Assembly (NCBI GenBank): GCA_026874595.1
Contig: CM049306.1
Span: forward strand, 18,221,019-18,285,018
Direction of reading: 5' to 3'
DNA length: 64,000 nt
Origin: Sipunculus nudus
Lineage: Eukaryota; Annelida; Sipuncula; Golfingiida; Sipunculidae
Positions 6,148-43,831 of this stretch are shown piece after piece (position 1 is the stretch's first letter; every line of letters begins with the position of its first letter). The translations under genes were made by a program, and so were the position numbers. The notes under the pieces were generated by a model. It was not told the origin of the DNA. It saw only the letters and a program-made list of their open reading frames with translations, and ran no database searches.

Positions 6148-6316
6148 TCAGCCCTGTGCCCACTCGGAGTACCCGCTCCTAGGCCTGACATAATCTGACT
6201 TGCTGGTAGTTAGTGAATTCTGTCCCTCCAGGAAAGAACACAACTGGTCATGTATTTCTGCAAATGTTGGTCTCATATTCGGATCCATATCCCAACAGTT
6301 AAGCATGAGAACATAC
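6148..6316 (-). CDS. RTK exon 23: end of kinase domain, short tail, stop
   Basis: Residues 1589-1644 and a TGA stop. It reads [20 protein letters not shown], the final kinase helices with the conserved Arg, then a tail of about 27 residues containing [12 protein letters not shown]. The two tail tyrosines, 1631 and 1638, are seven residues apart. The tail is far shorter than in most receptor kinases. Confidence 0.92.
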
Positions 6317-9300
6317 CTACAGAAAACATAAAAATATTCATTTGTATGATATTCAATATTCAGAACTAGAATAAGTCCTTTCGGGAACAGAGGCAGGAAA
6401 CGGTAATACGAAGAATCTAGTGTCCACAAGTTAAAATTCTGGCCTTGTGAGATTCTGATAGTGTAAGTATTATAAATAAAGTAAGATTAAGATGGTGACA
6501 TATAATCAGCGCATATACAATGTGGAATTTTTTAATACAAGAACCTGAACATTAGAGCCTACACCATAAGAACATGAATCTGTATCAATTCAATAATATG
6601 TGAGGACCTCAATGGTCATTCTATAAAACAAAAACATGGGGAAAATATATTAAAACACCTACATTTCTGGAGGTGCGAAGTCTGGCTTGTCCATCCGATG
6701 ACCGCACTTGAGATAATCACGGATGTCGAACGGGTCCACGTCGGGATAGGGCGTGCACCCCCGGGTCATTAGTTCCCATAATAGTACCCCATATGACCAC
6801 TACAAGCATAAATGTCTTACTGAGTCTATATCAATACGAAGACCCACAACGGCTGCTTATTTATCTTACATTTCTACGATGTGTTAAGGCTGAAATATTA
6901 CTGCTATTCTTACTGATGGGCTGTTGACTGATAAAATAATGAAACTGAAATATTTTCATAAATTTAGGCGGAGATATTGTCTCTTTTTCTGAATAGCTGA
7001 CCGATCAACTGATTTTCACAATAATTTAACTGCAAACCTGTGACAAACCCCTGCAAGCTTCTTATATGTCTTACTTTCCCATGCGATATTTTTCCCGTGG
7101 ATAACACAACTAAAATGCCAACTCGGAATACAAACGCTATATAGATGACAAAGCATGATTCTCAATAGAGATTGTATTCTCTTGGAGTTCATTGAAGTCT
7201 CTGTAATTTCTTGAATCTTTCTTCGGACTTCAAGAGTGTAAAATAAATTATTACGTTTTAGCAACCACACAATGTACTGCAAAAAACAGCATTTTATTTC
7301 AATGTCACTTACTACATCACTTTTACTGCTGAAGACACCCTTTTCTAGATTTTCAATGGCCATCCACTTAACCGGAAGTGGACAGCCTGTACTGTTTTGT
7401 TGGTAGTAATCTGTTTGGTAGATGTCCCGTGAAAGACCGAAGTCTGCGATCTTGACAATAAGATCTTTATCTACCCTGAAGAGTAAGACGGCATGTATTT
7501 AATTATTAAGATACTTTGACAGAGCTTGGTACTAAGTTGGTCCTATCTATTGTCAACGTTACTTTGACGGATGTGTATAGGTAAATGATACTTCGGCTTT
7601 AAAACTAATTTTTTTTTAAATTTGGCAAATTTAGTATTGCTTTGCCTCCGAATCTTGTTGTCATAAGTAAAGTGAAGGGAAATTGCCCTACATTTATAAT
7701 AATTACATCCTTTGATAAGATGTGCTGACAATAATGATTTGTGGAATGTTGCATTTACTGGAGAAAGAGAATATAGATGGAAAACAATATTAATAATTTT
7801 AGCCAGTTTTTTGTGTAACTGTTATATATAAAATAATCACATTACACAAGGCTCAACACGTATCACGTGAAATGGTATGATACATTGTCATGGCAGATGT
7901 AAAATTAAGAATGAAATCACAGATAAATAAACTTCAACTTAAAAAAATATCAACCAATTAAAATAAAAGCCCATAATACTACAATAACTTATTTGAATAT
8001 CTGGTAATTTGAAAATTGAAAAATTACTTTAAAAAGGAAACAATATCCTCAAAAACTCACATGCAATTTCTTGCTGCTAAGTCTCTATGAACGAATTTTT
8101 GTTCAGCTAAATAACACATGCCATCTGCTATCTGGAGACCAAAATGTATTAGTTCCCCTACAGTCAGCATCTACAACGAAAATCAACATATTAAAACGAA
8201 ATCATAAAATGTCGCGCCCCTGATCCATGCCCTATCGAACAAGTTCATTTTATTAACGTTTTATTGACCCATTACCTTACTCTCAAATATATATCTTAGT
8301 TCCTGTACTCTCAATCTAGATAGGTGAAAAAATACATTAATTTACCCAGATCCACCGCCAAGCGTACACCTCAAGTATTTTAATATATTACCGTCTCAGT
8401 ATATTTGCAAAGGCAACATGCAGTATATCTTTTCGACACATTTTTATACCTTTTATGCTTCATTTAACTTATCTTAGGTGATTGAGCACTGCTATAATGA
8501 AAGTGTTCCGTGGTTCGAGACACTGCTTTATCATGTTGGGTTTTACTTCTATACATAAAATATATGATAAAATACTGAGTGTAAGGAGAATGTATTTTAC
8601 TATAGTAGACTATGTTCACTATGCGAATTTATTCTGCAGCCTATAAATATAAATTTCAACATATGAATTATGCTGAACATTTTAAAATAAACCTTTATCC
8701 TTTCACAGACTTACATTTTCTTCATTTTGAATGAAGTTCTTGAGGTCGCCATTCTGCATGTAAGGTAACAAGACAAAGGCTCGGTTATTTTCTATGGCGA
8801 CCCCCACGAGGTGAAGCACGTTACTGTGCTTAAAGTCCTTCATGATGGTGGCTTCTGCCAGGAACTGTTCCATCTCCTTCACTGTTATTTGGTTATCTGT
8901 GAATAAACAAAAAAATAAATTACACTATTCTGTCCTAGACTATATCTGGTTAAACATTCCTTCCAAGAGGATCCTATAGGGTGAACATGTAATATACCTT
9001 AGCATTATGATGGAACAAGCATTATTTTAATCTATTAATCACTTCACTATCATGTTATGAAGAATTTGAGTTGACTATCTTTAGTGAATTTCGGTGCTTA
9101 TTTCATCATGTATATTGCTTTTATCTCGTAAGGTACGAACATGAGATAGAACAAGTGTGAATATGACTAAATAGGGATCACTGAAGTTATTTGTTTCATT
9201 CCCAGATTGATTACCGACGAATGACTGGCTTCGATTTAATGTCAAAGTCTAACGTAATAAGAACAGAAACAGTCGATTAACTGCAAACAACGTGTCGTAA

Positions 9301-12300
9301 TACACAATTATCCTTGTGTCATTGTCTCTCAACACAACTTGAGATTTTTAAGAAAAGTTTTTTAAGCGGGCCTATTTCGATATCTGACGTCCATTAAATA
9401 AAGATAATCCTTTGGTCCTTTCATAAAAATAGGTCAGAAAGCGCTGATTCAACGGTACATACGCTATTCGTTTTGTTCATATTCTCATGTTTATAACATG
9501 TTGCGGCCCGCACAAATTATCCAAAACATTCAACAAGGACATCGGCAAGCCAGGCGAACCAGAGTTTTGCAAATGGTGTTGTGCAACTGGTGACCTTTAA
9601 TCTTCTGTATATACATGCAAGCTACCACACTCAGTTGCCCGTTTTATTTTCTGTTTGTCAACATACGTGCATGTACCGGGTTTACTGACAACTTGCAGGC
9701 CAGCAAGGTTATATGTCCTTCACAAATCTTTTATAGGACCTTCTTATAGAAGATATAACCTAGAGTATATTAATATATACAGAGAATAAGCCAGAAATAA
9801 TACAAAATCAACAGATAAAGCATGTAAGAGCTTGTTTTAAAGTAATTTCTGATTTTTCTATCCGACAATTATGTTGTTATTAGCCTTAAGGTTAAGTAAA
9901 CCTATTCCACGTGTGTTTGTTATGTGAATGGATTCAATCCAGATTCCAGACTTTACCCTGATTTGATTGGCTGGTACATGTGAAAAGCTGGACTGAATTT
10001 TATCTACAACTAAGATCTAGTAATGCATATTGTTTTTAATATCTGCTGAAAATTTGGGACTAAAAGTGGCAGAAATACTGTGCTTTAACTGAGTGCTTTT
10101 TAATCTAAAAATTTTAGTCTCAGGAGATTTCCCAGTGTGTGACGTCACTGCCGAGTTGACAGTATTTATAGATGTGCCAATAGTTTTTGAACAAATCACA
10201 GAACCTCATGTTTTAGTGGAAAAATATATAGAAAATGTTTTTCCTCCACAAATTGGGCTCATTTTATGTAAAATCTATATTAATATTTTTTTATATAATA
10301 TTTCATAACTAATTTTGTTATATGATAATGTGAGATTTGGAATACGTTTGCTTGACGTGAAGCATTTTGGGAATTATTACTGAAACCTGGGGAGCCTACC
10401 TCTGATGGTTTTTATGGCGACCGCCCGTCCCTGTGTGCTGAAGCTGTCATCAACGAGTCGTCCGATGTGCACCCTTCCGAATTGACCTGCAGCATTACAG
10501 ATCGTCTCTAAGCTTCGTCTTCATCAAGATTTATGAATTAAAATAATCATCAAACATAACATGTTTATCTTATAACCACTAGGTCTATTCATGGTATACA
10601 TGTGGTTAGTTCACTCTGCGTTTAACGGTTAAAATGCAATCAGATTAAAAGAGGATGGTACAATTTAGACATTGTCAGGTGGCCTTGAGGACCATCATTT
10701 GTGTAATTCGGTGCTATCTATAGTACTATCATTGTTACAATAGATTTGTACCACCAGTTGCTGTGTATATGCAAAAGGTAGTGATGTACATATCTAACCT
10801 TTCCCAATGACCTTGCCGACCACCATGCGTTTGCTGTCAATGAGACAATCTTGAACCCTGAGCCGCAGCTCATCCTGCAAGACTTCCAAGACATCCGTGA
10901 TAGGGGTCAGGTAGGTGCTGCCGGTGGACCCTGTGATGCCAAATACGAAAAATATTAATAACTTGAATAATCACTAAATTGCTTGGAAAAATGCCATATA
11001 CTGATAATCATTCTTTATTCTCACAGGCAAAAACACTAAACGAAATGATTAAAACAAGGCGTAAAACGGTGAGGTATACAAAAAACGTAAATTTAAGGAG
11101 AAATTGTAAAAAAAAAAAAATTTTGTCCAATCAGATGAGACCTTTTGCTGGAAGACACAGCCAAGCTAGACTGGTACCCCGCTCTATTATGGCACCGCTG
11201 CTCTAGGCCAATCTATGCTTGGCTGAGGGCCATAATAGAGCAGGGTACCAGTCTACAGCCAAGCGAGGAATACACGGAGCCAATCATGTTCATTTCGTTT
11301 TGAGTGACAGCTTATCGCCCCGGTAACCGTCTGAACAGGCCACAGGCTCAGAGAGAATTGCCCCAGACGTGGTTTGCTTAGGGCCTTGGACACTTGGATG
11401 GCCGGCGAGTTGTAATTCAAACGAAACGTAACAACAAAGGCTGCGTGCACACCTCGCAGGCTGGTTTCAGTTCTGCAGACAACAGATACATGGCTACGCT
11501 AAAACAATCATAATGTCATAATCGAGTCGGTCGATGATGCGAGAATACAGAGGCAGCAATTAAAATTCGACCATAGACTCTCATCAAGCGGCGCTTGAAG
11601 CGCAGCTATGGGCGGGGCCAGGATGCCTGTCGAGTGTTTGTTTATTGGCATCTGGTTGGCTGCTTGTCACATCATACGCACGTTTTTTTTTTCAGCGGCC
11701 ATCTGGTGTCTAAATATATCATAAACGGTCAAAGCTGGCAGCGTGAAAATCAGTTGCTTCTTAGAAACGCAAGATTTCCGCTGCCTCTGGAGCGTAGCTC
11801 TGTATAGACTTCCTGAATTATAAAGTCTTTTAAAGTAATTTACACACCGGGCCTTTTAAGTTGACAATTGAACCATACCTGCATAATACGCGGAGATATA
11901 AGCGTTGGCGTGGCTAGACGTGTGAAGCTCAAGATGAGGATGTTTGCTCTTCTCCTGCTTCCGTCGGCTGTAGACCAGACAAAGGATGAGTATCAGCAAT
12001 ACCAGCAGCACGACCACTGCTATGGCACCAATTATCCCGTACCGGAACGCAGGGTTATCCCACCAGCTGTTCTCGTACTTCAGATAGCCCACCACCGCCA
12101 CGATGTTACCGACCCGCACCTTTCATTGAATAATAAGGACGCTTATATGAGAACAGCTGTGTTGCCATAAGTAATACTTTTATAATTTATTTTTCAGAGC
12201 CTGGGTTTTACATGTACATATATATGCTGTATTATTGTACTCTAAATTATTCAGCGTAATTGTCTATGACATTAAGTCTGTACTGAAAGCACAGTCATTA

Positions 12301-15300
12301 ATAATATAATATCATATATCCAACGATTTATCTAATTAAAAAAAAACCATAAGCGTCTTGAATTACTAACTGATTAAAACTGCAAATTTCCATCCTAGGA
12401 TGCAAGGACCAAGCATGACGAATCGTATACATAGGATAAAATACTATTTCGCATAATGGAATAAGACATGTATTTCAAAATATATTTTTCCCTGTTTTTT
12501 TCCAGCTGCAGGGTAGTGAATATATAGATACAGATATGGTTGATGATATTAAGTACCATATATTCAACACCTCAATATTCTATTTACTTAAAGATACAAA
12601 TCTCTACGGAAATGCTACTAATGCAAATTTCTAATATATACCGTCACTTCCGGGCTCCCATCTTTTGACTGGATATCCGATTCTGCTTCCGGTTGTTGGT
12701 CAGGTGGCCTACAAGCTAGCTGATTGGTTGCCAAATCTATCTCGTCACATGTCTCTACCCCAACGGTTATATTGTAGTCTTCTTTTGTAGCGGCCAGATT
12801 AAGTTTGTCTCCCTGGTTCAAAATAAATGTAGTTATCATTAAAAAACGGGTTGTTAGAACTCGTCTCATACAGTTTGTTTTCTAAGTTTCTCCTTCGAGA
12901 ATTGCCTCATCTTGTACTCTTTTCATACAAATTTTCCCTTCAGACTTTGCCTTGTGTAATTTAAGCGAGAAAACTCGTCGTACAGACGGCTTTTCGATCT
13001 TTACGGTGACCGTGGCAGCACGCTACTACTGCTCATTGTCTTTATCTTTGTAGGTGAGTTATAATTTATTGTATTTTCAGTCACTTTTAAAACTTGTAGC
13101 CACTTTTAGAACTGTTTAAATATACAATGTGCATAATCTATGTCCACCAACCTTTATTACTATATGATCATGGTTGTATGGAGAATACGTCTTGTACAAG
13201 CGCACGTGCCCATCCTCTTCAAACCGGTGCAAAATAGGATCACTGTAGACATTGAGGACGCCAAACTGCGGCAATGTCTTGCTCAAGTTTCTATACGCCT
13301 CGACGCCGTCTAACTTGAAACCGAGGTAGAAGTTGAGTGCTTCATTATTCAGCTTCTTCTGGATGACGCCTACATCCGGGGTTTGCTCTTCCTCCGCCGC
13401 CTGGCGGATAGTACGGTGTCTGGGGTGTGGTGCGGCTGAGAACTCCCTGGTATCTCTCCGCCGTCTGTTCACAATATTGGCCGGCAGGTAAATCTCGGGA
13501 GTGGGGCAAACCATTAGACTTGGACTTTTAACCTCACATGCCTGAAAGAATAATTCCTAAAATATGAATTTGCAAATCAAAGATATTTTATTCCGAGATA
13601 TTTTACACTTGAACAGTAACTTGATGCTCTTCAGAGCACTAATATTTGTTCCCATTCTAAAACACTGTTTTTAACAGAACTTTGAATAGACTGAATAAGA
13701 GCATCACATTTTATAAGGCTGGATGGTTGTCTTTCACTTAGTGTAGATCGCGTTTATTCTTCAGGTTCATTACAAACGGTACTTATTATTGGAACACTAT
13801 TATTGTTGTTCAGGATACTATAGATTAAGCTTCTCGGCGCCATCTGGTATTAAAACCTTGAACGAAACAGCTGTTTTAGATATCCTTCTTTTTTTAAATA
13901 GGCATCTTGAGTAATATTTCAGTGAAAATACTTCTATTCTCGTTTGCAATGTATCCCCATGAATAAGTATATACAAAGGAGTTATCCAATTTGGATGTCA
14001 CACAAGTTATATTTCAATGAAGTAACTGAAGATGGCGCTGAGATGCAATAAAGGTATTTAAAGTAATTATTAATTAAGACAAAGTCTTATGCGCTTCATT
14101 AATCCTTTGTCATGGAGATTTATCATAGATCAGACTACTCATTTGTACAAGAATATGAACCACCTACCGAGGAGAAGACTGTCATCTCTCCTTTGTGGAC
14201 CATACTGACCTCCATGACCGGCGCAAACACTGACGTCAAAAACTTCCCTTTTACCGTCAGTGCTCTGCCACCTCTGAAGTTAAAGATTATTATCACTGAA
14301 AACGTGGCTACGAGTCTCGAAGCAAAAATAGGTGATATTTTACACGAATGCCTAACTCATTTTTGAAAACCCTCCTCATCCGAAAGCAACGTACAATACA
14401 TAATTCTGTATTTTTAATATGATTCATTGAAAAGATATGTATATATAATAGACCAGACTTTGAAGTCACTATTACAAAGTTCTTACTTGAGGAATGTACT
14501 CATTGGACTGATGTGCTGGATGATAGGGTCAGGGCGATACTCGAATTTTCCGACTTTGAGCAAGAAACCGTCTGGGAAGGTGACTGAGATCGCATGTGAT
14601 CTGTTCTCCATGGCTGCCACCATGTTCCGCTTCCGGGCCGACTCCGTCAGACACTGGAGTGTAGTGTCATTACTGTAAAAATGGGAAAACGTGCTTAAGG
14701 TTTTCTTGTTTCACACTGTGCATGCGTATTAAGCATCTTATTCAATGAATCGCATGCATATTCTGCAAACGAACGTCTTATTTAGAAATTAATATACTAT
14801 TCCTATTTTGATCGTGCATAAAATATAGAATAATGTTTAAGGGGTCTGGGATTTTGGTAAAATGTGACTTTTAAATACGTGAAATACTGTATGCAAAATA
14901 AAACGTATCCTCGAACTGTGGAAGAACCAGATTTACGTACAGGTTACAACACAATGTTTAAAAATATATTAAAGAAAAAATAGGGACGTTTATAGGTACA
15001 GTTTACAATATGAAGTTTTTTTCTTAAAACTGCAAGTTACTACGTAATATTATGATAAAAAAATGATTGCCTTTGTATCATGTATCGCAATCATATGAAT
15101 TTTCATTGAAGATCGGCGCCAAACGCCGTCTACCGTTTCTCTCACTTTTAGTTTGAAGCGTGTGCGGTAGATGGCGGTAGGTACAAATTGGCACATTTTT
15201 ATAAACCTGACGCACCTGTCTTGTTTGTTGATGACGCAAGCGAGAGGCCCGACATCTCCACGACCTCTGATGATGGTCCGGAGGTATCCCCCCTCCATCG

Positions 15301-18300
15301 TGACCAGAGTACCCCCGGATACTGGACCGTAACGCGGTAACCAGCTGGTCACATACGGGACCTAGAAATCATGAAAAATGCCATATTTACAATTTCCAAT
15401 GAATATGCAAATTATGCATCACTGTAAAAATCGTTTAATTTTTATAATAATTGCTAGCGGCCAGCAGCTTACAGGTATATAAACGTTATATATGGGTAAC
15501 TTTGGGTAACAAATCGTGTATTCCAATAATCAGACAGGAGAGGAAGGTTTGTTGTGAAATCAAAATGTCTGAGAAAAGAAATGAAATTATGATGTTACCT
15601 CTATCGCATGGTCCATTATTGTTCGGGTTTAAGGGATATGGTTATGGGTTAGCATTTGTTTACTTCTTCCTTCACAATCAAATATAAAAAACTGCAATTC
15701 ATACTTACACATCTCCTGTCGGTTAAAGTAGCATTCCCTCCTGTCGTTCGGCAGGCACACTGACCGGATATGACGTCACAAGTAGGACTGGTGGCGCCAT
15801 CTTTATGACAGTCACAACGGTCACATCCATTCGGGTTATCCTTGGACAAACCAAACATATTAGGTCTACATGAATTACACTTGAGGCCCACAACATTAGC
15901 CTTACAGGGACAGACCCCATTCTGCAGATCACACTGTGTCGACGAGTTAACGGTACCAGCACCGGTACAGTTACATAAAGTGCAGCCGAGTGGATTAGCG
16001 GCGTCTAATTTATACGTATCAGGTTTACATTGATCACACCTCCGTCCCACCACATTCTCCTTGCAGTTACACTTCCCAGTGATGGGGTCACACGCTTTGC
16101 CTTCTTCAGTCCCCGGTAGGTGGCAGTCACAGGACTTCGTACACTCCTTCTCCTGCAAGTTCAGCTCTGATCCGGCGTAGTATCCGTCCTCACATACGTC
16201 ACAACGTGACCCGGTCACGTGGTCTTTACAGAAGCACTGCCCTGTGACTGGATCGCAGGAGCTGTTGACGGCACCATAAGGGTCACAATTACAGGGGACG
16301 CAGCCTAGCTCCTCTGTTGCCTGTAAATTGTAACTGCTGTCTTTGCATGTGTCACACTTTCTTCCTGTATAAAAGAACATTACCAGATATCATTATTAAA
16401 GATTTAGACCTGGTTCAATATTCAGATTATATGATAGTCTCATTTGATTGACGGTGATTATAGTTATAAGAAACTGTTAAACATCTATCTAATACAAGGA
16501 GTGTTATTCTTACAGTTTTCCCTTGAAAATAATGTATTTTACAGAATACGTGAGAGTGATAGCATCGTTCTTTGTCAATTAATTCCTGTCCCTGCTTCAT
16601 CCAATTAATAAAGACTAATCGATATGAAATTGAAATATCTTACCCGTAACAAGAGCCTTGCACTCGCACTGTCCAGTTGTGGCATCACAAGACGTTTTGC
16701 CCTTTACCACCCCGTCAGCATTACAGTTACACGGTGAGCAGCCATCCTGTTTCCCGGCATCGAATCCGTAATGATCCTCTTTACACTGGTCACAGTAGAA
16801 CCCCCGCACGTTACTCTTACACATACAGCGTGCGGTCACGGGGTCACACACCACCTCGTTGTTCAGTGTTCCTGTCACGTTACACGTGCAGGCCTTGCAC
16901 CCCTCAGGGTTACTGGACTGTAGGTCGTAGTAACCTTTCTTGCACGTGTCGCAACGCCTGCCCCCCGCGAAGGTTTTGCAAGGACACTGGCCTCCATACT
17001 GTAACCACAATGTAGAGGCATTTTAGTACACAACCTTTAATAAACAATGCCCGTTCCCAAGTAAAAATCACAAGTAAGTGAAATATACAGTCACGTCTAT
17101 AATATGTATAATATGATGACTTTAAAGGATACATTAAAATGATAAAACAAAGAAGAATCAGAATATACTCTGCATATTGATTTTTATGAAAAAGAAGTCG
17201 ACTGAAAACAGTTTAAAGATATTATTCCAGTTCTCCTTAATTATAACAAAACTAGTACATTAAAAGGAAAGCTTTTACCACTCGTTTGGAATTTGGAAGT
17301 GATTTTAAAGATCTGATTTCGTTAGGCAATGAGAACCACACAGAAGGGCCTCGATTAGCCCTGCCAGGGCGTTAGTATTTATGTTTTCTACTAAAATGCG
17401 TGAATAATACGTGATTTAATGCACCGATAAACGTAACTCCGTGTCGGCTCTTAAAAACAAGAACGTCGTGAAGCGGAGCATCCCCTCGCACGGGGCAGAA
17501 TTTGAATGGGTGTATTAGACAGTGTAAAAATGAGGAGGGCAGCTCTCTGGCCTTGAACTTTGCTCCTTTGACCTCAAACTAAATAGAGTTCTTCATCCAT
17601 AGGTGGGTGAGCCATATATATGCAAGATGAAAGGTTTTGGTCAAACGGTTTGCCCTAAAAAGTGTCCACAAGCTTTTTCAAGAAGTGGGCCCTGTAGCCG
17701 TGACCTTTGACACTGTGACCTCAAAATCAATAGGGGTCTTCATCCATGGGTGAGTGAGCCATATTTGTAAGATGAAAGGTTTTGGTCAAACGGTTTGGCT
17801 TTAAATGGGTCCAAATGTGTTTTTCTCAAAAAGTGAGCCCTGTGGCCGTGACCTTTCACCCCGTGACCTCAAAATCGATAGGGTTCTTCATCCATGGGTT
17901 GGTGAGCCATCTTGCAAGATGAAAGGTTTTGGTCAAACAGTTTGGCTTAAAATCGGTCCACAAGGTTTTTCAAGAAGTTGGCCCTGTGGCCGTGACATTT
18001 AACTCCGTGGCCTCTAAATTGATAGGGTTCTTCATCTATGGGTGGGTGAGCCATATTTGCAAGATGAAAGGTTGTAGTCAAACGGTTTGGCTTAAAATAG
18101 GTCCACAAGCTTTTTGAAAAAGAGGGTCCTATGGCCGTTACCTTTGACCCTGTGAGCTCAAAATTGCTAGGGTTCTTGGCTTTGAAATCGATCTGCAAGT
18201 TTGACGGACAGGTGAACGGACGCACGAATGGAGGCATTACTATAACTCTCCCGCAACGCGTTGCGACGGTATTATAATAGGACCAGAGAGTGGTAAATTA

Positions 18301-21300
18301 GTTATATGATTTGCCGCAAGGTAGCGGTACCGACACTTAAGGCGATACAGCTATTTTTGTGCAACTCATTTCTTGGTTTCGCCGCTGATGGGAGGCCACT
18401 TGTTGCAGTTCTAGTAACATGATTGTGTCAATTGTTGACAAACGTAAAATTATTTGGATTGTAGATGCGCATTTGATGGGCATATTTACCCCAACAGAAT
18501 GGATGAAAAATATTTACATCTTTTAGAAACTGTAAGCCACTTTAGCTCTTTCAATTGGGCTGCGTTTGGGATATCGAAATCGAAACAGCTGGTAACTGTA
18601 CGTGCAGCACAATTTTGTGTGTAAACCTTACCATTTCCTCCCTGAAATATAATTTCGGTAGTGGATGTAGTGGATCGAGGTGTGTAAGCAAAGGCGAGTG
18701 GATTATAGCTAACGGTCTGTTGTGACCCACGGTTAATCCACCTATTGACACTAGAAGTTAAGTTTGTGAAATTTCATTAATGGGCATCACCTAAGCTAAA
18801 AGCGTAGCAAAGGTAATTTAAGATAACTGCTTGACAGAGGGCGCCAACAGAGCAAATAGAAACTAATCTTAATAATAATGGATAAAAATATTATCTAGAG
18901 CAAAATAAATGTTGGAGGAGTGGCCTGCCATGCTCTCATGTTTATCTTTCGTCACATGAACTTATTCTTGATATTATTGATATGAGGAAAGCTTTCCAAA
19001 TGTTTAATGTCCCAAATAAGTTAAAGTGAATATCGGTTCCATTAACAAATTTATCACAAACTTAATAGATACAGCCATAAATTTATAGAGTACATATTGT
19101 AGACACATATTGTCATCAAATGTTAAGCATTATTCATGAACTAAGCTGATTTGGAACAGCTTTTTAAACAACAAAAATTATTTAAGTATTCTGATACACA
19201 AAGAGGTAAGGTCACATGTCAGGTCACGGGTGACCAGCGTTCATGCCTTAGCAATATGACTGTGACAGAGACGTGTTGTGCTCTTTTCTTCATGATAAAA
19301 TGTTTTATTCGTATATTGCGCAACCAGGACTTTTAAAAGCTATGGCAACTGAGAAATAGAGGATAGATAGGTAGAGTGAACTTAGTTTAAGGTGTATCTT
19401 ATCCTTAATGACCCTTTTATTCGTTCCTTCTGGTTTACCAGGATGACAACTAGGCGAAATCATTAGACCATATTGAAGGCTTTGAGCATGGAGCCCGGGT
19501 CCCCGGAGTGTAATTCTCAGTCTTGCACCACGGCAAGAGTTTAGTTTTAGGTTCTTGTAGATTAATACCATTTTCAATTATATAAACACTATGGTTATTA
19601 ACACGAGTTTTAGGCCCAAGCAGAATGAAAGTAGATTGTTAATGTTAATGGTTAACCTTTTATATTTTGACCCAAATACAAGCTACATTTACCGCATCTT
19701 GTAAGGTTTGCTGAACCTCAGATATTGTGGTACCATGACAATAGCGTAAGCAATACATTTTGCATGTCTTAATCGATGGAAAAGGTCATTAATATATAAA
19801 AGGAAGATAATAGGGCCGAGTAGAGGACTCCAGGGCACGACTATATTAATCGCATGAGCCTTTGAATAATGAATGCTCATAAATATTGACATGTTAAAGG
19901 GTTACGCAGAGTTCAAATTTGAGTTATACACTTACCAACTATTTAACATGTTTTGTGAACACATCCAAAACAATTATAAAATGACTCTAGTATGAGATTA
20001 TGTTTCTACCAGACCTTTTTCCATGAGCATTTGTGGATTGCGTGTATTGGTCGTCGGCTGTACTAGGATTCAATGAAGATCTTGGGGGGGGGGGGGGGGG
20101 GGTGTTGTTCTTGTGAAATTAAATTGTATGCAGCGGGTTGGACAAGGAAATCACTATTTTGGTATAATTTTTACTTTATAATTTGAAATGTAACCAAATA
20201 TGATCTTTATAGTCAATATAACAGACTCGAAATCTCGATGTTAGTTGGCACCAGCAGATGGTGGAAGTGAGGAGTGAAAGGACTATAAATACCATACATG
20301 AAGCTATATGCGTCTTTTAAACCGCCGTTATCAAATATGATTTTGACAAGCTTTAAACAACACTAGTAATAAACCATGGACGTAAAACATAAAACGCGGC
20401 CTTACTTCCAGGCATGGCCCAGTGGCTGAGATTCCTCCGGTAAAGCAGTCACAGCTCTGGCAGGTTTCCGTCAGGTAGTTGGTATCCGTCACGTTACGGA
20501 ACGTGTCACGGTCACACACCTCACAGTTACGTCCTTTGGTGTTGGTGGACGGGTCACACGCACACTTGTACGGGATTTCCTTGGTGTCACAACCTGACGC
20601 GTGACCGTTACAGTCACATCTTTAAAAAAAAGCATAAAAATGTTGCACAGGGCCCAGCGCATTTGCATAGCAATTATCATAATAAATACACTAAAATATA
20701 TATTTAATCATTCAGGTATAAGTTAATGCTTAAAATGAACGTGTCGGCACAAGGATCTAGTAATCTTGTTTTTTTTAAATTCTGGTTGTATATTTTCTCA
20801 GTTTGAATGGTATACCTTGCCCGCACACGAATCTCTCGTACGCCATGATACTGATGCTTCAACGTTTTGACGTGCGGCTGGCCGTTCAACGTCACGCGCA
20901 CGTGACTTGCTTGCATGAACTCTCGCAGTGTTTCACTTAAGTATGATCCCGTTTGTCCTGGTCGGTTGGCCAAAATATCAAACGAAACTTCTCCCTGGGA
21001 ATAAGGTGGGTCGTTGGACCTGTAAGATATATTACACAGAGGTATATGTAGAATGATGAGTATATCTATCAAACTATCACCTATATGCAATTTAAAGGGC
21101 ACTAAAAACGTAGACTGATACCCAGTACAATTACTTCATTAAACGTCTCAAGTTCAAATTCCCTGAGTTATAAAGATACGAGACATCCTTTCATTTTTTT
21201 GCTTTGAACATTTTGCAATGGTGTTTACTATCGTCAATTATATTTTGAAAAATGTGCAGCAAACATCAAACATCGAGAAAGTAAGGAAAAGTATGGGAAA

Positions 21301-24164
21301 GTAACTAGTGTCACAAAAAGGTATGTTTTAATTAATTAATTAATAATTACTGAATTATACATAATTATCACTTACGTATACAATTTCCGACAGCTGACGT
21401 CATTTGCTGCAATCAATGGCTCGTCATAATCCATGTTGAACTTTGCCATGCAGTCCTGTGTGAAATACTGCCATGACCGCCAGGGGGAAGTGGAGTTGAA
21501 TTTTCTTTCGATGATGACCGTCTCTGGAAGTGGACTGTAAAACTCAATGTCCACCCCGAGTACCTGTCAAAGACGGAATATCCATATGAAATGGTGTATT
21601 ATTTTGTGTAAATTAATGTTCAATAATGTAACAGACAATCAACGAAGAATATTAATTAAAACTGTTAGGAATTTTCTGTAAAATATGTTTACTCTGTGTT
21701 AAGTTTGTTGATTTAAAAAAATCATACAAACACAGGTATTTGAACATATAAAAGGACCAAGATAGCCCCACACATATATTGACAACAATAGTGTTTATAT
21801 AAATATTCTGCATTGTTGGATGCGTGTCCCAAACAGAAAATCTGAGATCTCAAAACCCACTGACAAAAAGGGTTCTGGTCAGTAAAACCTACGGTTATGG
21901 AAATCCCTAGCACAGAAAATCTGGGATGATATATCTCTGAAATCTTTTAAGGCTGCTTGCATGCTTTCATAACGGCTATTCACTGATGACCCTGAACTAT
22001 TTACTATCCAAGAAAACTGTTTACCACATCTGTTTTTCTTATGCCTGAATGTTATATCATTGTCGTTTCTAAATCACTATCTAGTACAATGCTTGCATAA
22101 AGCTTTTTTTTTCATTTCACTTGATGTTGTATAATAATTATATTTTGTTTTCCTAGCAATGTATACACAAAGTGCTTTCGAACGAGTTATATGCATGAAA
22201 AGAGCGCTATGTAAAAATAGTATTATAATAATAATGTCCTGTCTGTTTTTTTCCTCATATTTTATGCCTACGATATATTAGTGCTAAACTTCTTACTGAA
22301 TCAAAAACAGCATAACAAAATGATGATAGGTAATTAGGCATTGCGAAATGCAGAATTCCGGAACAAAAGACGACCATGGCACCAATATCTTTTGTTACAG
22401 CTCATACCAAGCTTCGGTGGAGAGTTAATGGCCCGGAATAATAGTGTCTGTGGCTCTAGTTTGGACCAAAGAGCTGGCTCCAATGTAGCTGCAGTATTTG
22501 CAAATGCCATAAATGTTATATAACATTGCGTCGTTTAAGATGAGAATGCGAGATATGAGTATATATACCTGGAACGTATCAAGCAAATCAATGGTGATTT
22601 TGACGTCACTAATGCCGATTTTCGAAATCCAAAAGGTGCTAGCTTTGCCATCATTTAGAAATTCTGTAATGTGAGATTCTTGATTCAGTCGTCTGCGAGC
22701 GGTCGAGTCTCTCCCTGGCCCCTGATTGGCTACACAAAATGCTTCGTCTTTGACGTTAAGGGCGGGGTGACTTGACGGACAGCGGCACTCAGTGTTAATC
22801 CGCGTTTCCGGTAAAGTACCGTTGTAGATCTCCATAACTTCCCTGAAAAAGTAAACCCTCATAAATTTTAACACAAAATGAAAGAAGAAAGAACATTAAT
22901 GTAAACATTAATGTTTACACAAAATAAAGGAAGGAAGAAGATGAATGCAAACACCTGTCTGACTATGAAATCATTTTTTAACAGGATCTTTATGCATTAT
23001 TGTAACTAGGACTTGTGGCAAATATTCTTGGTAAACCCAAAGTCAGCACCATTATATGTAGCATTTGTAAGGCATGGTCAATATAAAACCCTTTTCGCGT
23101 TCATTCTCGTTCTCGCCTTCTCGTTTTATATACGAACACTTAAAAAGGCATATACCAAGCATATTGAAACTGCTTTCAGCTGTGTATCAACAACTTAAAA
23201 TACTCAGTCAATTGTCAAAATGTATATTATCTTCTACTATTAATTCATTTTTGCTGAATATAAATGTTTACTGGCGAAACTCGGTGTCTCTTTTTCGCCT
23301 TGTTTACAGACTCTTTACAATAACAAGGCCAGCAAGGCTGGAGGAACAATAGTGCACATGCGCGAAACTTTGCAACCAAGGAAAGAAGATTTACTTTACA
23401 TGAATCATAATTAAAATATATTTTTTTATCGCTGGTCCCACCATTGGTTTAGTATAATGCAGGGGTAGAACGCTGTGTTAAATTTTTCCTTCGCGCCAGT
23501 GATCTCGCACAGGTGCACGGTTATTTATACTGTGTACAGGTGAAAGGAAATGTTTTCAGAACGAAATCACGGCAGGAACTATAATATATCCAGGAGAGTA
23601 CACTGCATATCATGTATACCTAATATACAGTATATATATAATTTTGGTGTGGATCTCGTATCTTGGACGTCATCAAGGAAAACTGACAAATGTAGAGTCA
23701 CTTATGCGCGAATGAACCTGGGAAGTTGGGCCGAATAAGTGAATCAAACAACGTTTTGGGAGCATCCCACTATAATGAACCCCATATGGCGGAGGCTTGC
23801 ATTCCTTATAATGCAGAAATTTCTTATTTTTTTAATGTCCCTTACCGATTTGATAAACTCTCGAAATACACCTTGGCGTCCTCCATTAGTCCCAAGTACT
23901 GAGCATCTGAAATTAAACACAGATGTTGTGAAACTGCCACAAAGAGCCATGACCTGACTGTTGAAATCAACCTATTAAATTTGAGAGGGATCACGTTTCC
24001 CATTTCATGCAGTATCCATGTTTATTCAGAGTCAAGACTCTCATATTGTTCGTGACTGGAATTTATACTCACCATTAATTGTGTATACATTTTTGGCAAA
24101 TATTCATAAGATATTGTTTTTCTAGCATAAATGATATTCTGCTGTGATAGGTAAATTAAGATTA

Positions 24165-24215
<51 letters not shown>

Positions 24216-35819: not shown

Positions 35820-35874
<55 letters not shown>

Positions 35875-36630
35875 TTATACAATGACCGAATTAAAAATGT
35901 TGATTTTTTCAAGTTCGGCACTAAGAGACTGTAAATCTACAGGCATAGATGTCGTTTGGTACATATTTCATATACTCAAATCAGGGGCGTAGCCAGGATT
36001 GAGGGAGGGGAGGGGGCCATGATCAGTTGCGGAGCCAGAAATTCGAAAACCGGGGGGGGGGGGGGGGCGCTAATATACATGTATGGGTACTATGAAAACA
36101 GTTATATATACGTGTATATATATATATTGTTATTATCATTATTATTATTAATATTATTATTTTCAAACAAGTCAATGGCACAAAGGCGCATTTACATTTG
36201 TAACTTGCAAAATATTATCTTTTAAATGTAATGCTCGGAGTGAAATAACTGATATGTTGAAGTCTTATGGTAAACTCTACCGGGTTTTGTGGTTTCGACA
36301 GCAAACAGGACTCCTAAGAGCACAGACCGCGAGTTCGAGTACCGGTGTCACCAGACCCGTGTGATTGTTAAGGTTCGACCCTAACGAGGGCCTGTTGTTC
36401 TGCAGCTGATCATAAATATCCTTATACTAAACAACTAAATTTGAAAGTAATAAACTGCAGATAACTTTAATAATATCTATTAAATGATTCCTAAAAAAAT
36501 ATATATAAAAAACAAAACAAAAATTAATCACGAAAATTGGGAAACTAGATAAAATGAGATATATCGCAGCTCAACAGGGGGCCGGTGCCGAAGGTGCCCC
36601 CTCTGGATCTGCCGCTGATAGCAAAGGCAA

Positions 36631-36683
<53 letters not shown>

Positions 36684-42281: not shown

Positions 42282-42333
<52 letters not shown>

Positions 42334-43831
42334 TTTTTGTGTGTTTAAACATAGTTATTTTCTTGCACTATAATACTAAGAACGATGACAGGTTATAAAT
42401 ATAAAAATGACGGTATATAATAATATAACATATATATAAAATAACATAAGCTGTTGTTTTCTTATATGCTTAGATAAATGAACAAACACCATGCACAACA
42501 AGTTTTGTTATATCGGATTACCGAGATGGCACTCATTTCGGGCAAGGAAAGTTTATTTACAAGATTATCATTTTTTTGTAATCGCGAAATCAAAGCCACA
42601 TAGAAACACTATTTCAAGTGAACAGGTTAACAGATGACGAAAATGCAAATTATCTTTGGATAAAATAACAGGTGACCACTGATAAATCTTGTTCCAGTGG
42701 GTGCCATGACATTGTGGGTGAGAGAACTCGTTGGTTATTAAAATTACACAGACTATAGCAGTTTGGTTATCTTAATAACAACCTGGGACGGTATGGAAAA
42801 AATACACTAATTCTAGAATCCTCCATATAAAACCGTTATTACTCTTATAGCCCACTCCCCAGCTGAGCTTATGAATAATTTGACATTACGTATTTTAGTA
42901 GGCATGGCATAAAGGGATAAAAATTATTATATATTTACTGTGAACAACAGCACTTACAAAAATACGACTTTTAACTTTAAAACCCCAAGCTCTTTAATTA
43001 AATATAGTCCCTTCTCTACCAAGACAAAAATTTGCACATAATTTTACAGACTTATTTGCATATCTACTTCACAGTCAAGGAAACAAACGATTGGATATAT
43101 AAATAATACACATCAACAACCGGAAAAAGATCAAATTCACTCTATTATATCCTCTTTTCTGAAGGGCTAATCTGTCCACAGAATCATTAAAATCCATACA
43201 TGTCATTTAGAAGATCTTGTCCTGTACAAATACACGAGCAGACGAGGTAATTACTGTCTCTTAATCCATATGATGATCCAAAGTATAAAAGAACTATCAA
43301 ATAATGACATCGAAAAATAAACATGCAATTTTACTGAATTTTGACTTACCCTTGAGATCCATGATTCTTCGGTTTTAGCCAAACACTGTATGATATATCC
43401 CAGAGACTCTGGAGCCTGATAGCGGCCAGAATAGCAGGATCTATCGTTAAGTAACAGTTTTGGCCGGGTGTGGCACCGCCTTTAAAATGTGCAGTCCTTA
43501 TATTTGGCACCGAAGTCCGGCTTGAACTACTATCATCATAAACACACTGATCCCAGCCCGTTGCGGACTCGATAATTCTTTGGTTTACCGGGTGTGTGTC
43601 CCCATGAGGGCAAGAAGATGTGCAGATTTTCTCATTGCAATAATCACGATATGCAGGATCTGTGGAGCTTTCACAATATGTGGCAGGTCCCCCAAGCTCA
43701 CATATGGCATCCGCTGGGGTAAGTTCCAAGGGTTTATTCAACGCCGCATTAAATTCATTTGGAAAAAGTGCGCCGACTCGGACATTTTGCGCAGTTGACA
43801 GTAAGATTAGAAAAATGTATGCGAAAACCAT
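6148..43831 (-). CDS. Usherin-headed, Met-like receptor tyrosine kinase (whole gene, 23 exons)
   Basis: Predicted single-pass cell-surface receptor kinase of 1644 residues, joined from 23 exons whose GT-AG borders and phases all agree (4935 coding bases). Approximate domains: signal peptide 1-20; cysteine-rich usherin-like lead-in 20-130; LamG-like jelly roll 145-275; laminin N-terminal domain 285-497; laminin EGF repeats 498-905; IPT domains about 906-1001, 1002-1150 and 1152-1250; membrane helix 1266-1288; kinase 1355-1617; tail of about 27 residues. Catalytic features are complete: glycine loop G1361-G1366, Lys1388, Glu1406, HRD 1480-1482, DFG 1500-1502 and activation-loop Tyr1508/1512/1513. 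The start at 43831 was chosen because a hydrophobic signal peptide begins there, although the frame stays open upstream to 44107. Usherin itself has no kinase, and Met has a Sema head instead of this one. An adhesion or matrix-sensing kinase is my inference; the ligand is unknown. Confidence 0.88.
6663..6799 (-). CDS. RTK exon 22: kinase C-lobe
   Basis: Residues 1544-1588. It reads [20 protein letters not shown], then [15 protein letters not shown] and PDFAPPE. The stretch WELMTRG-x-x-PYPDV-x-x-FDI-x-x-YL closely matches Met. Phase 2 donor GTAGGT. Confidence 0.93.
7313..7475 (-). CDS. RTK exon 21: DFG motif and activation loop
   Basis: Residues 1489-1543. It reads [18 protein letters not shown], with metal-binding Asp1500 and the Y-x-x-x-YY tyrosines 1508, 1512 and 1513, then [20 protein letters not shown]. 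The YxxxYY loop is shared with Met, Ron, insulin-receptor and Trk families. Ends in phase 0. Confidence 0.93.
8061..8170 (-). CDS. RTK exon 20: catalytic loop
   Basis: Residues 1453-1488. It reads [19 protein letters not shown], then [13 protein letters not shown], giving catalytic Asp1482 and Asn1487. The HRDLAARN motif is the tyrosine-kinase form, and [13 protein letters not shown] matches Met. Phase 2 donor GTGAGT. Confidence 0.93.
8715..8896 (-). CDS. RTK exon 19: kinase N-lobe, helix C and hinge
   Basis: Residues 1392-1452. It reads [19 protein letters not shown], with helix C Glu1406, then [16 protein letters not shown] for the hinge and helix D. This segment is very close to the vertebrate Met/Ron pattern (FL-x-E-x-x-IMKDF-x-H-x-NVL and LPYM-x-x-GDL-x-NFI). 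Ends in phase 0. Confidence 0.92.
10400..10486 (-). CDS. RTK exon 18: glycine loop and catalytic lysine
   Basis: Residues 1363-1391. GQFGRVHIG completes the nucleotide-binding loop GKGQFGRV, and AVAIKTIR supplies the catalytic Lys1388. It is a small 87-base exon with matching one-base phases on both sides. The 1.5-kb intron that follows shows nothing recognisable. Confidence 0.9.
10799..10930 (-). CDS. RTK exon 17: juxtamembrane segment and start of kinase domain
   Basis: Residues 1319-1362. It reads [20 protein letters not shown], then [15 protein letters not shown], the first beta strand of the kinase and the start of the glycine loop. It ends with one base of the loop's next glycine. The following intron is 312 bp. 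Confidence 0.88.
11145..11805. mobile_element. Dispersed repeat family B, copy 1, in RTK intron 16
   Basis: Homologous in reverse to 57570-58152: both share TTTCGTTTTGAGTGACAGCT-like, GGCATCTGGT/CGAGTGTTTG and CGCAAGATTTCCGCTGCCT-like blocks. One end carries nested inverted GGCAGCG arms. No coding capacity. This copy has an extra hairpin at 11167-11255. Confidence 0.7.
11167..11255. repeat. Inverted repeat hairpin, 25-bp arms
   Basis: Arms AGACTGGTACCCCGCTCTAT(TATGG) at 11168-11192 and its complement at 11230-11254 differ by one base; the loop is about 37 bp. The other copy of this repeat family lacks it, so it looks like a small later insertion. Confidence 0.75.
11879..12119 (-). CDS. RTK exon 16: end of ectodomain, transmembrane helix, juxtamembrane start
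   Basis: Residues 1239-1318. It reads [20 protein letters not shown], then a helix of about 22 hydrophobic residues (1266-1288, rich in V, L and I) and the stop-transfer SRRKQEKSK. This fixes the topology: exons 1-15 outside, 17-23 inside. One spare base at the end. The next intron (948 bp) holds a dispersed repeat at 11145-11805. Confidence 0.9.
12642..12812 (-). CDS. RTK exon 15: third (membrane-proximal) IPT domain
   Basis: Residues 1182-1238. It reads [20 protein letters not shown], then [17 protein letters not shown]. The GD-x-L-N-x-A...DY-x-V-x-VG-x-x-C...QL-C-x-PP pattern is close to that of the last IPT domain of plexins. It contains one potential N-glycosylation site (NIT). Phase 0 donor GTATAT. 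Confidence 0.85.
13152..13541 (-). CDS. RTK exon 14: second IPT domain with tetra-arginine site; start of the third
   Basis: Residues 1052-1181. It opens [20 protein letters not shown], then has NRRRRDTR at 1076-1083, a candidate proprotein-convertase site, followed by a charged, low-order stretch to about 1110. It resumes with [12 protein letters not shown] and [12 protein letters not shown], which resemble the plexin/Met membrane-proximal IPT region. Phase 0 at both ends. Confidence 0.86.
14168..14273 (-). CDS. RTK exon 13: second IPT domain, start
   Basis: Residues 1016-1051. It reads [20 protein letters not shown], the GG-x-x-LTV-x-G strand of an IPT domain, and ends MTVFSS in phase 0. 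It is a small exon of 106 bases, confirmed by phase and by the domain pattern. The following intron is 626 bp. Confidence 0.84.
14487..14672 (-). CDS. RTK exon 12: first IPT domain, end, and start of second
   Basis: Residues 954-1015. It reads [16 protein letters not shown], then [20 protein letters not shown], then [16 protein letters not shown]. The C-x-T and F-x-Y-R-PDP-x-I-x-x-I-x-P pattern is the standard link between successive IPT domains. Phase 2 donor GTAAGA. Confidence 0.86.
15216..15361 (-). CDS. RTK exon 11: first IPT/TIG domain, start
   Basis: Residues 906-953. It reads [20 protein letters not shown], the P-x-x-GP-x-x-GGT-x-x-x opening found in IPT domains of plexins and Met, and ends [11 protein letters not shown] in phase 2. 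This is the first exon of the Met/plexin-like half of the receptor. Confidence 0.86.
15709..16364 (-). CDS. RTK exon 10: laminin EGF repeats 4 (end) to 8 (truncated)
   Basis: Residues 687-905, the largest exon after the start. It contains the end of repeat 4, full repeats 5, 6 and 7, and repeat 8, which stops at its sixth cysteine (TLTDRRC) where the phase-0 donor GTAAGT follows. The missing last two cysteines of repeat 8 do not appear in the next exon or in the 347-bp intron. Confidence 0.9.
16644..16998 (-). CDS. RTK exon 9: laminin EGF repeats 2 (end), 3 and 4 (start)
   Basis: Residues 569-686. It begins [19 protein letters not shown], completing repeat 2, then a full repeat 3 ([17 protein letters not shown]) and most of repeat 4 ([11 protein letters not shown]). 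Each shows the eight-cysteine laminin EGF pattern. It ends with one base of a split glycine codon. Confidence 0.9.
17570..18180. repeat. 146-bp tandem repeat, about 4 copies, in RTK intron 8
   Basis: The block TTCATCCATGGGTGGGTGAG recurs at 17591, 17738, 17886 and 18030 and decays at 18175 (spacing 144-148). Copies share GCAAGATGAAAGGTTTTGGT and TGACCTCAAAAT. It is the core of a longer element that ends in the perfect palindrome CGCAACGCGTTGCG near 18252. Confidence 0.85.
19720..19870 (-). pseudogene. Non-LTR retrotransposon reverse-transcriptase fragment
   Basis: The minus frame reads [18 protein letters not shown] followed by about 13 more residues, matching the conserved RT stretch VPQGS[14 protein letters not shown] before the catalytic YADD box. 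The YADD position is degraded (AYAI). Only about 50 residues survive in RTK intron 8; a dead LINE relic. Confidence 0.7.
20084..20102. repeat. Poly-G run
   Basis: About 19 consecutive G on the plus strand in RTK intron 8. Similar runs occur near 36053-36067, 54726-54743, 54818-54830 and 62303-62322. Confidence 0.95.
20406..20619 (-). CDS. RTK exon 8: laminin EGF repeat 1 and first half of repeat 2
   Basis: Residues 497-568. It starts [12 protein letters not shown], the canonical first LE repeat after an LN domain, and ends [16 protein letters not shown] in the middle of repeat 2. Donor GTAAGG in phase 0. The next intron is 3.4 kb and carries a reverse-transcriptase fragment, a 146-bp tandem repeat and a poly-G run. 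Confidence 0.88.
20816..21019 (-). CDS. RTK exon 7: laminin N-terminal domain, end
   Basis: Residues 429-496. It reads [21 protein letters not shown], then [14 protein letters not shown], and ends [14 protein letters not shown], the final strands of an LN domain (compare laminins, netrins and usherin, where a Y-x-x-x-EI-V-GRC segment leads into the first LE repeat). Phase 2 donor GTATAC. Confidence 0.88.
21376..21563 (-). CDS. RTK exon 6: laminin N-terminal domain, middle
   Basis: Residues 367-428. It includes [19 protein letters not shown], then [11 protein letters not shown] and DVSCRKLYT. The W-x-x-WQYF-x-x-DC motif is diagnostic of LN domains. It ends in phase 2 with donor GTAAGT. The next intron is 356 bp with a short TTAA-rich stretch and nothing else. 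Confidence 0.88.
22569..22842 (-). CDS. RTK exon 5: usherin-type linker and start of laminin N-terminal domain
   Basis: Residues 275-366. It reads [12 protein letters not shown], then [11 protein letters not shown], then [20 protein letters not shown] and IDLLDTFQ. The CRCP-SHP motif and the LNDG...TFWIS strand are hallmarks of the usherin LamG-to-LN junction and the LN fold. It ends in phase 0 with donor GTATAT. The following 1005-bp intron shows nothing recognisable. Confidence 0.87.
23640..23826 (+). mobile_element. Helitron-like dispersed repeat, 5'-truncated copy, in RTK intron 4
   Basis: Shares GTGTGGATC, CGAATGAACCTGGGAA, GGGAGCAT and GGAGGCTTGCATTCCTTA with the copies at 30.5 and 62.1 kb. 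The terminal stem and CTRR have decayed. It ends about 20 bases from the exon 4 donor. Confidence 0.6.
23846..23906 (-). CDS. RTK exon 4: short 61-base exon closing the LamG-like domain
   Basis: Residues 255-274. It reads [21 protein letters not shown] across both junctions. It was too short for an ORF list, but it is the only segment that joins exon 3 (one spare base) to exon 5 (needing two bases) in frame. It has a clear TTTCAG acceptor and GTAAGG donor. The end of a Helitron-like repeat lies about 20 bases past the donor. Confidence 0.8.
24168..24332. repeat. Compound (CA)n / (TA)n microsatellite in RTK intron 3
   Basis: Two (CA)n blocks (24168-24204 and 24235-24264), with a short duplicated segment ATTAAGATTATCGCA around them, then about 34 TA units. 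Confidence 0.97.
24375..24498 (-). CDS. RTK exon 3: LamG-like domain, end
   Basis: Residues 214-254. It begins [15 protein letters not shown], which continues the exon 2 strand (HLAVQ-V) exactly as in usherin-type LamG domains, and ends YRFGLSHDG plus one base of a split codon. The donor is GTAAGT. The following 468-bp intron contains the long (CA)n(TA)n tract. Confidence 0.85.
24976..25132 (-). CDS. RTK exon 2: LamG-like domain, middle
   Basis: Residues 161-213. It reads [20 protein letters not shown] and ends DTWVHLAVQ, the tryptophan-histidine strand typical of LamG-like jelly rolls. The first base completes the split glycine of exon 1, and the exon ends in phase 0. It is separated from exon 1 by an 18.2-kb intron; the next intron is 477 bp and holds nothing I recognise. 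Confidence 0.85.
25460..26415. repeat. 144-bp tandem repeat, 6-7 copies, in RTK intron 1
   Basis: The block GGCCATATTGGAATTCC recurs at 25584, 25729, 25873, 26016, 26157 and 26302 (spacing 141-145). Copies share AGGTCTGGAGCCCTCGTATG and GTTATCGCGC. The array ends in a short hairpin region (GGGCAT...GTGCCC, about 26470-26505), like a cored transposon end. Confidence 0.9.
27811..28096. mobile_element. MITE with ~35-bp imperfect TIRs
   Basis: Left GGCCAAA...AAGGTATGGTTCTCAGGCAC and right GTGCCTGAGAACCATACCTT...TTTGGCC are inverted. The flanks are TTAG on both sides, so a TTA target duplication (PIF/Harbinger-like) is possible. No protein. The inner part has GCGGGCGG and poly-T. Confidence 0.65.
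29428..30366 (+). mobile_element. Pearl/HINE-type Helitron-like element with tandem-repeat core
   Basis: It opens with a hairpin (TATCCGC...GCGGATA, 29428-29455) and closes with the complementary GGCGGATA (30326-30333), a stem GTAGTCG-CTTGT-CGACTAC (30337-30355) and CTAG|T (30363-30366). The core is a 280-bp tandem repeat. This plan matches the pearl elements of bivalves, which are now treated as non-autonomous Helitron relatives. No transposase. Confidence 0.7.
29650..30310. repeat. 280-bp tandem repeat made of two ~140-bp half units
   Basis: CTCATATCTCG(G/A)GAACCGTTT starts at about 29651, 29931 and 30211, exactly 280 bp apart. The palindrome GGTGGCGCCACC recurs at 29739, 29888, 30019, 30168 and 30297 (steps of 149, 131, 149, 129), so each unit is an old dimer. 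Confidence 0.92.
30385..30712 (+). mobile_element. Helitron-like dispersed repeat, copy adjoining the pearl-like element
   Basis: It runs from a GT-rich start through TTTTAGTGTGGATCCGGCA to GGCTTGCATTCATTGGAATG, AGATTT spacing and CTAG|T at 30709-30712. It begins within about 20 bases of the previous element's CTAG end. Confidence 0.65.
31000..33800. other. RTK intron 1 stretch with nothing recognised
   Basis: AT-rich, with no open frame above about 70 codons and no repeat structure I could detect by eye. Confidence 0.5.
33833..34078 (+). mobile_element. tRNA-headed SINE with conserved core
   Basis: A tRNA-like head (AGTGGTAAAACGCTTGGC, B box GGGTTCGATCCCC at 33890-33902) is followed by GGTGGTTTTCTCCGGGTACT and CCGGTTTCCTCC (33947-33978), a core shared by many marine invertebrate SINEs (I believe the Nin-type domain). 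The start carries a triplicated CAGCTGGA. The tail is AT-rich. Confidence 0.75.
34080..35810. other. RTK intron 1 stretch, no feature
   Basis: Short overlapping frames near 34571-34856 on both strands do not resemble known proteins. No repeat ends seen. Confidence 0.45.
35982..36787. mobile_element. hAT-like non-autonomous element, 806 bp
   Basis: Inverted ends CAGGGGCGTAGCCAGG and CCTCTGGCTACGCCCCTG, flanked by CAAAT on both sides (35977-35981 and 36788-36792). The interior has poly-G, (TA)n and a tRNA-like patch near 36313-36350, but no protein. Confidence 0.72.
36800..38029. other. RTK intron 1 stretch, no feature
   Basis: AT-rich with only short chance frames; nothing recognised. Confidence 0.45.
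38032..38448. mobile_element. Tc1/mariner-like MITE
   Basis: Left AGTCTAACCTCTTTCATTCGCC-like and right GGCGATTGAAAGAGGTTAGACTG-like ends are inverted, and TA borders both sides (38030-38031 and 38449-38450). The right end, TA|CAGTCTAACCTC in reverse, fits Tc1/mariner ends. 417 bp, no transposase. Confidence 0.65.
38451..43345. other. RTK intron 1, first 4.9 kb after exon 1
   Basis: Contains a poly-G run near 40220, an AT trinucleotide patch near 39630, a 35-bp minisatellite (41177-41360) and a (TA)n tract (42285-42331). No gene seen. Confidence 0.5.
41177..41360. repeat. ~35-bp minisatellite, about 5 units
   Basis: The block CTATTC(C)TACA-TATG-x-GCAT recurs at 41215, 41251, 41286, 41317 and 41351 with drift. 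Confidence 0.7.
43350..43831 (-). CDS. RTK exon 1: signal peptide, usherin-type cysteine-rich start, first strands of LamG
   Basis: Encodes residues 1-160 plus two bases of a glycine codon. The start [15 protein letters not shown] is a plausible signal peptide. It is followed by GALFP and a set of cysteines ([30 protein letters not shown]) whose spacing matches the usherin amino terminus. The exon ends in [14 protein letters not shown], the opening of a LamG-like fold. The donor is GTAAGT at 43349. The open frame runs on upstream to 44107, so transcript and true start are not certain; the base at -3 is T, a weak start context, and +4 is G. Confidence 0.82.

Follow-up and report, generated by a model that had tools for sequence, protein, structure and literature searches.

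We identified a gene that appears to join an usherin-type head to a Met-type IPT and kinase half in the window, the 64,000-base stretch of DNA analysed here. It lies on the minus strand (43831 to 6148), and its 23 phase-compatible exons give a 4,935-base reading frame of 1,644 residues with one terminal stop. The product is a coding-intact model of a type I receptor kinase with an usherin-type head, and it carries sequence features expected of an active receptor kinase: a hydrophobic start (hydropathy), a membrane helix and the catalytic residues (motif search). We consider it probable, at roughly 0.78, that this is a single-pass receptor tyrosine kinase that arose by exon shuffling and that most likely works as a matrix-sensing receptor.

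The gene model is the best phase-compatible chain after scoring of splice sites, coding potential and open frames. Strict cut-offs in the exon finder recovered only part of the exons, and the cut-offs were then relaxed. Rebuilt without an exon list, with end points, exon number and length known beforehand, the chain agrees in all three with the 23 phase-compatible exons over 6148-43831 of an earlier, sequence-only reading; the coordinates of that reading were right, and it had left the minus strand unstated. All introns carry GT-AG ends (22/22), which is not independent evidence because the chain was offered GT and AG sites only. The independent support for the model is its exon phases and its domains. 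Near-equal splice alternatives were found at the acceptors of exons 4 and 9 and at the donors of exons 7 and 14. Intron sizes range from 196 to 3,407 bases, except for intron 1, whose 18,217 bases appear to make it the weakest link of the model. The LamG match (aa 144-277) spans this intron, with the junction at aa 160/161. In intron 1, near exon 2, a 165-base direct repeat also occurs six times (25375-26402), at a spacing of mostly ~145 bases. Elsewhere in the window, a 312-codon stop-to-stop open frame on the minus strand (59839-60774) reads by eye like a seven-helix receptor of class A type, and a tandem-repeat open frame on the plus strand (49178-50011; ~26-residue unit, GQICQNVNHLPSSLRSVISGDPDLNL) is probably a minisatellite.

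The sequence-only reading had listed LamG-like, LN and LE domains, three IPTs, a membrane helix and a tyrosine kinase, all of which were recovered by Pfam, hydropathy and alignment to MET. Exon 1 (43350-43831; all exons on the minus strand) encodes a hydrophobic start, which is a putative signal peptide (aa 1-19, hydropathy), a cysteine-rich N-terminus and the beginning of the LamG-like domain (Laminin_G_3, aa 144-277, E 4.3e-10). This domain continues through exons 2 (24976-25132) and 3 (24375-24498) and ends in exon 4 (23846-23906). The LN domain (Laminin_N, aa 307-493, E 2e-28) occupies exons 5 (22569-22842), 6 (21376-21563) and 7 (20816-21019), ending in the last of these. LE repeats fill exons 8 (20406-20619), 9 (16644-16998) and 10 (15709-16364), where the usherin-type head ends; eight LE-type units were counted by pattern, and EGF_laminin was found at E 2.5e-61, with six stretches under E 0.001. 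Beyond intron 10, IPT 1 lies in exons 11 (15216-15361) and 12 (14487-14672), and IPT 2 starts in exon 12, runs through exon 13 (14168-14273) and ends in exon 14 (13152-13541), which also encodes a basic linker and the start of the IPT 3 region. IPT 3 itself is assigned to exon 15 (12642-12812). The count of three IPTs comes from two recovered by MET alignment and the best TIG stretch, aa 1171-1243 (TIG E 7.6e-15 overall, with no single stretch under 0.001 alone). Between IPT2 and IPT3 sits RRRR (aa 1077-1080; 13455-13466), the sole furin-type motif in the protein. Basic runs occur near the corresponding place in two relatives, KRKR in L015 and RQKR in L043, and none was seen there in the relative L042.

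Exon 16 (11879-12119) carries a membrane-proximal stretch, the sole strong membrane helix by hydropathy (aa 1267-1285; 11979-12035; KD19 3.57) and the start of the juxtamembrane region. The latter continues into exon 17 (10799-10930), where the kinase domain starts (PK_Tyr_Ser-Thr, aa 1356-1614, E 5.2e-91). The kinase hallmarks, including DFG, were found by motif search: the glycine loop and AIK lysine in exon 18 (10400-10486), the HRDLAARN catalytic loop in exon 20 (8061-8170), and DFG and the activation loop in exon 21 (7313-7475). This last exon also holds the tandem tyrosines Y1512/Y1513 (DIYQTDYY; 7403-7408), a Met-like activation-loop pair by comparison with the MET letters. Exons 19 (8715-8896) and 22 (6663-6799) encode the kinase N-lobe and C-lobe, and exon 23 (6148-6316) the kinase end, a short tail and the stop codon. 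Neither Sema nor PSI (Pfam, E 0.001), nor Ig or fn3 (Pfam), was found in the protein.

The assignment of the head to the usherin amino-terminal plan holds, both in the order of its LamG-like, LN and LE domains by Pfam and in exon phases. With an E limit of 1, a search of the entire genome (1.43 Gb, 153 contigs) with the first 553 residues gave 18 matches: eight were the window gene, five fell at C3:2.83-2.87 Mb and five elsewhere. A Laminin_N search of the genome gave 16 exon matches. The gene at C3:2.83-2.88 Mb contains LN and LE exons and, farther on, more LE and one fn3; we call it usherin-like because LN, LE and fn3 are all present. Eight LN/LE exon boundaries are equal in phase between the two genes, namely both ends of the three LN exons (2 to 0, 0 to 2 and 2 to 2; exons 5 to 7) and the acceptor side of two LE exons, the first (2; exon 8) and the one that opens with GGQC (0; exon 9). 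Deeper in the LE region the two genes differ, with introns in the C3 gene that are absent from the window gene. LN identity between the two is 36-41%, and therefore the head copy is probably old. Ahead of the LN domain, aa 19-107 match the C3 gene at 29% identity, and the LamG exons have no match in it at E 1. The LamG part is therefore tied to usherin less firmly than LN-LE. The LN domain also matches laminin and netrin chains. Thus the window protein resembles usherin (USH2A) in its LamG-like, LN, LE order and, through the C3 gene, in the eight LN/LE phases, but it has no fn3 past the LE repeats and carries IPTs, a membrane helix and a kinase instead. Usherin is not known to have a kinase.

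The other half of the protein is Met-type, as had been proposed. Among PDB sequences the best single-domain kinase scores were MET 301, RON 271, Mer 259, AXL 251, TYRO3 238 and RET 233 bits. The top-listed EGFR entry, at 316.5 bits, is a sum over two kinase copies, and MET leads per domain; the same two-copy sum also tops the kinase searches for the genes at C5:75.35 and C1:3.38-3.41 Mb. IPTs 1 and 2 could be aligned to MET 657-806 (E 5.3e-17), a span that we take to be MET IPT2-3. The window protein shares with MET and RON its IPTs, a single membrane helix, the activation-loop YY pair and a kinase nearest to MET in score, and the phase-0 acceptor ahead of its IPTs recurs before the second IPT of this genome's MET-like gene. 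It differs in having no Sema or PSI, three IPTs rather than four, IPTs that begin at the match to MET IPT2, a short C-tail, and a kinase that groups with other Sema-less IPT kinases. AXL, MER and TYRO3 are the next kinases by score after MET and RON, but the window protein has no Ig or fn3 ectodomain. An Axl-type receptor was ruled out by the absent Ig and fn3 together with kinase scores below MET.

A kinase tree with Met, Ron and Axl members had been suggested, and it placed the window kinase in a separate four-gene Sema-less clade, not with MET and RON, the order among clades being open. The tree has 11 rows, six from this genome and five from PDB, the latter presumably human, and leaves out the loci C2:25.22, C2:25.30, C5:55.45 and C8:45.04, among others; paralog rows are built from tblastn pieces and lack some edge residues, and three of them lack the last kinase exon. 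One clade (95/96) unites the window gene with those at C2:35.67, C9:45.71 and C2:25.25 Mb, all Sema-less IPT kinases. The other groups are MET+RON (87/87) and AXL+MER (98/100); five of the eight inner branches stay open, and two rows, EGFR and C2:25.25, are long. The row nearest to the window kinase is C2:35.67, at 59% identity. In topology tests, for which the groups were named after the tree had been seen, a pairing of the window gene with MET was rejected (p 0.0002), as was one with the PSI-bearing gene (p 0.009), whilst grouping of the four-gene Sema-less clade with AXL/MER was not rejected (p 0.41). We therefore use Met-type to mean nearest in score and not MET ortholog, because the deep tree order is open and the pairing with MET is rejected. 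A simple MET ortholog was ruled out by the absent Sema and PSI together with the rejected pairing (p 0.0002).

Kinase and IPT searches of the genome returned several loci of similar exon pattern, and the upstream stretches of five were examined. For these relatives, head assignment relied on strand and on proximity within the 10-30 kb upstream, not on splice chains. Upstream of same-strand IPT exons we found an ephrin-receptor-like domain over cut-off with weak EGF at C2:35.67 Mb, TSP1 over cut-off with weak EGF at C9:45.71 Mb (both EGF calls under the Pfam cut-off), and an ephrin-receptor-like domain over cut-off at C2:25.25 Mb. The window gene and all three of these Sema-less relatives (3/3) have a phase-0 acceptor at, or at most one codon (<=1) from, the first residues of IPT1; in the PSI-bearing MET-like gene such an acceptor stands before the second IPT. 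IPT acceptors were read as the nearest AG, and the comparison is of acceptors, not donors. The three sister genes are therefore like the window gene in kinase clade (95/96), IPT matches and phase-0 acceptor, but unlike it in what stands upstream, ephrin-receptor-like, TSP1 or weak EGF domains there and the usherin-type head here. The domain swap put forward by the sequence-only reading is thereby borne out: head phases equal those of the C3 usherin-like gene, the tail is Met-type, and the position of the junction intron is common to four relatives.

The gene at C1:3.38-3.41 Mb contains PSI (Pfam 32.9 bits against a cut-off of 23.1; MET PSI-IPT1 E 1.9e-22), IPTs and a kinase that scores 310 bits to MET, 300 to RON and 252 to Mer. 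By these matches it appears MET-like, with MET and Met-LP both candidate identities. An exon-by-exon search of the genome, whose counts are lower bounds, gave at least 6 Sema exon matches, none of them at the Met-type loci examined, and by eye no Sema was seen in the 20 kb upstream of L051 at the MET-like gene (C1:3.37-3.39 Mb; PSI exon, many repeats). Long repeat arrays with open frames lie upstream of the PSI exon of this gene (L060 and L061, C1:3370001-3390000). At L045 (C5:75350001-75360000) Ig domains lie upstream of a Met-type kinase (MET 291, RON 267 and TYRO3 235 per domain) and no IPT was seen; this locus may add another head to those seen with Met-type kinases. Lastly, three Met-type kinase exon clusters fall within 90 kb at C2:25.22-25.31 Mb (L043, L048), with IPT matches near two of them, and are likely a tandem family.

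The head swap seems not to have been a single event. Since different head domains lie upstream in the three sister genes, interest shifts to the whole clade of IPT receptor kinases with swapped heads. Most simply, exons would have been shuffled at a single intron, and different copies would have kept different heads. A broader proposal, to which we would give slightly less than an even chance, is that, at one phase-0 intron, the IPT and kinase half was repeatedly given new, mutually unrelated matrix or adhesion heads (usherin, TSP1-EGF, ephrin-receptor-like), and that the member with the usherin head serves as a receptor kinase for basement membrane or matrix, in a class of its own beside the DDR-type collagen receptors.

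The head could instead belong to a separate gene, so that a secreted LamG-LN-LE protein and a downstream IPT receptor kinase were misjoined by exon chaining. Retention of intron 10 (15362-15708, minus strand) would give a secreted head, with a stop 19 residues past exon 10 (frame VSMNC to NKC), and one ATTAAA lies within the intron. However, the LE and IPT halves are only 347 bases apart, and the splice sites between them, GTAAGT (donor) and TTTCTAG (acceptor), are both in phase 0. Seven ATGs occur in this intron, five of which stop short of exon 11 whilst two enter it out of phase, so that none starts a frame in phase with exon 11, and with starts looked for in intron 10 a kinase half standing alone would be without a signal peptide. 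Moreover, the three sister genes, whose upstream head domains are of other kinds, likewise have a phase-0 acceptor ahead of IPT 1. We rejected the two-gene reading on the 347-base LE-to-IPT intron without an in-frame ATG into exon 11, and regard it as highly unlikely. The same 19-codon open frame and ATTAAA could also mean that the gene yields two products: besides the full-length receptor, a soluble head that acts as a decoy or matrix component and that arises when intron 10 is retained or the transcript is polyadenylated internally. An early stop is expected in any intron, however, and a single hexamer can occur in an AT-rich intron without having a function; we think such an isoform unlikely. 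That the gene is an assembly chimera or is decaying is barely credible: a single assembly is the sole source, but the window has an N count of 0, the contig is 110.9 Mb long, the reading frame is intact with its kinase hallmarks present, and the exon phases are common to relatives elsewhere in the genome.

In the exon-shuffled receptor that we favour, usherin-type exons (LamG-like, LN, LE) would have been joined to the exons for IPT1-3, helix and kinase; the join would lie in a phase-0 intron immediately ahead of the IPT aligned to MET IPT2. Usherin and laminin heads bind extracellular-matrix or cell-surface partners, and the LamG-LN-LE head may do likewise. Matrix-driven clustering would then bring the kinases together, Y1512/Y1513 would be phosphorylated and Met-like signalling would start, coupling matrix contact to Met-type signalling. 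Cleavage at RRRR between IPT2 and IPT3 may yield a two-chain receptor. Alternatively, the receptor might keep a Met-like soluble ligand (HGF/MSP-like), with the usherin head merely positioning it, as its Met-type kinase and IPT parts could suggest. In MET and RON, however, much of the surface that binds HGF/MSP lies in Sema and PSI, and both are absent from the window protein, which makes this distinctly unlikely.

Met and Met-LP kinases are reported from annelids and molluscs in passages of a MET-evolution survey that found them by Sema queries (PMC6374515); because the queries were Sema, Sema-less receptors would be missed by design. As described in the same passages, Met-LP, of Lophotrochozoa and Echinodermata, is a Met-like kinase on a complete plexin ectodomain with Sema (PMC6374515). 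It is like the window protein in placing a Met-like kinase on a non-MET ectodomain, but the window protein has no Sema or PSI. Ectodomain shuffling in tyrosine kinases is discussed in general in parts of PMC8662651, in whose main text laminin and TIG have zero occurrences, and PMC6040699, in the part that bears on this subject, deals with netrins and plexins only. Among the matches listed from the open-access literature, which lacks most subscription journals, no title or abstract start describes a LamG/LN-IPT-kinase receptor; unpublished annotations may well exist. Judged by its sequence, the window gene would be an IPT kinase of Met type whose head has been replaced.

Direct sensing of the matrix is known from only a few receptor kinases, of which the DDRs are the textbook case. 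If our reading is true, matrix contact would gain a new path to motility and growth signalling through a Met-type kinase that bears an usherin head. The sister genes with other heads would constitute a natural experiment in how far receptor kinases tolerate head replacement, and the window gene may let cells read the surrounding matrix through a growth-factor-receptor switch.
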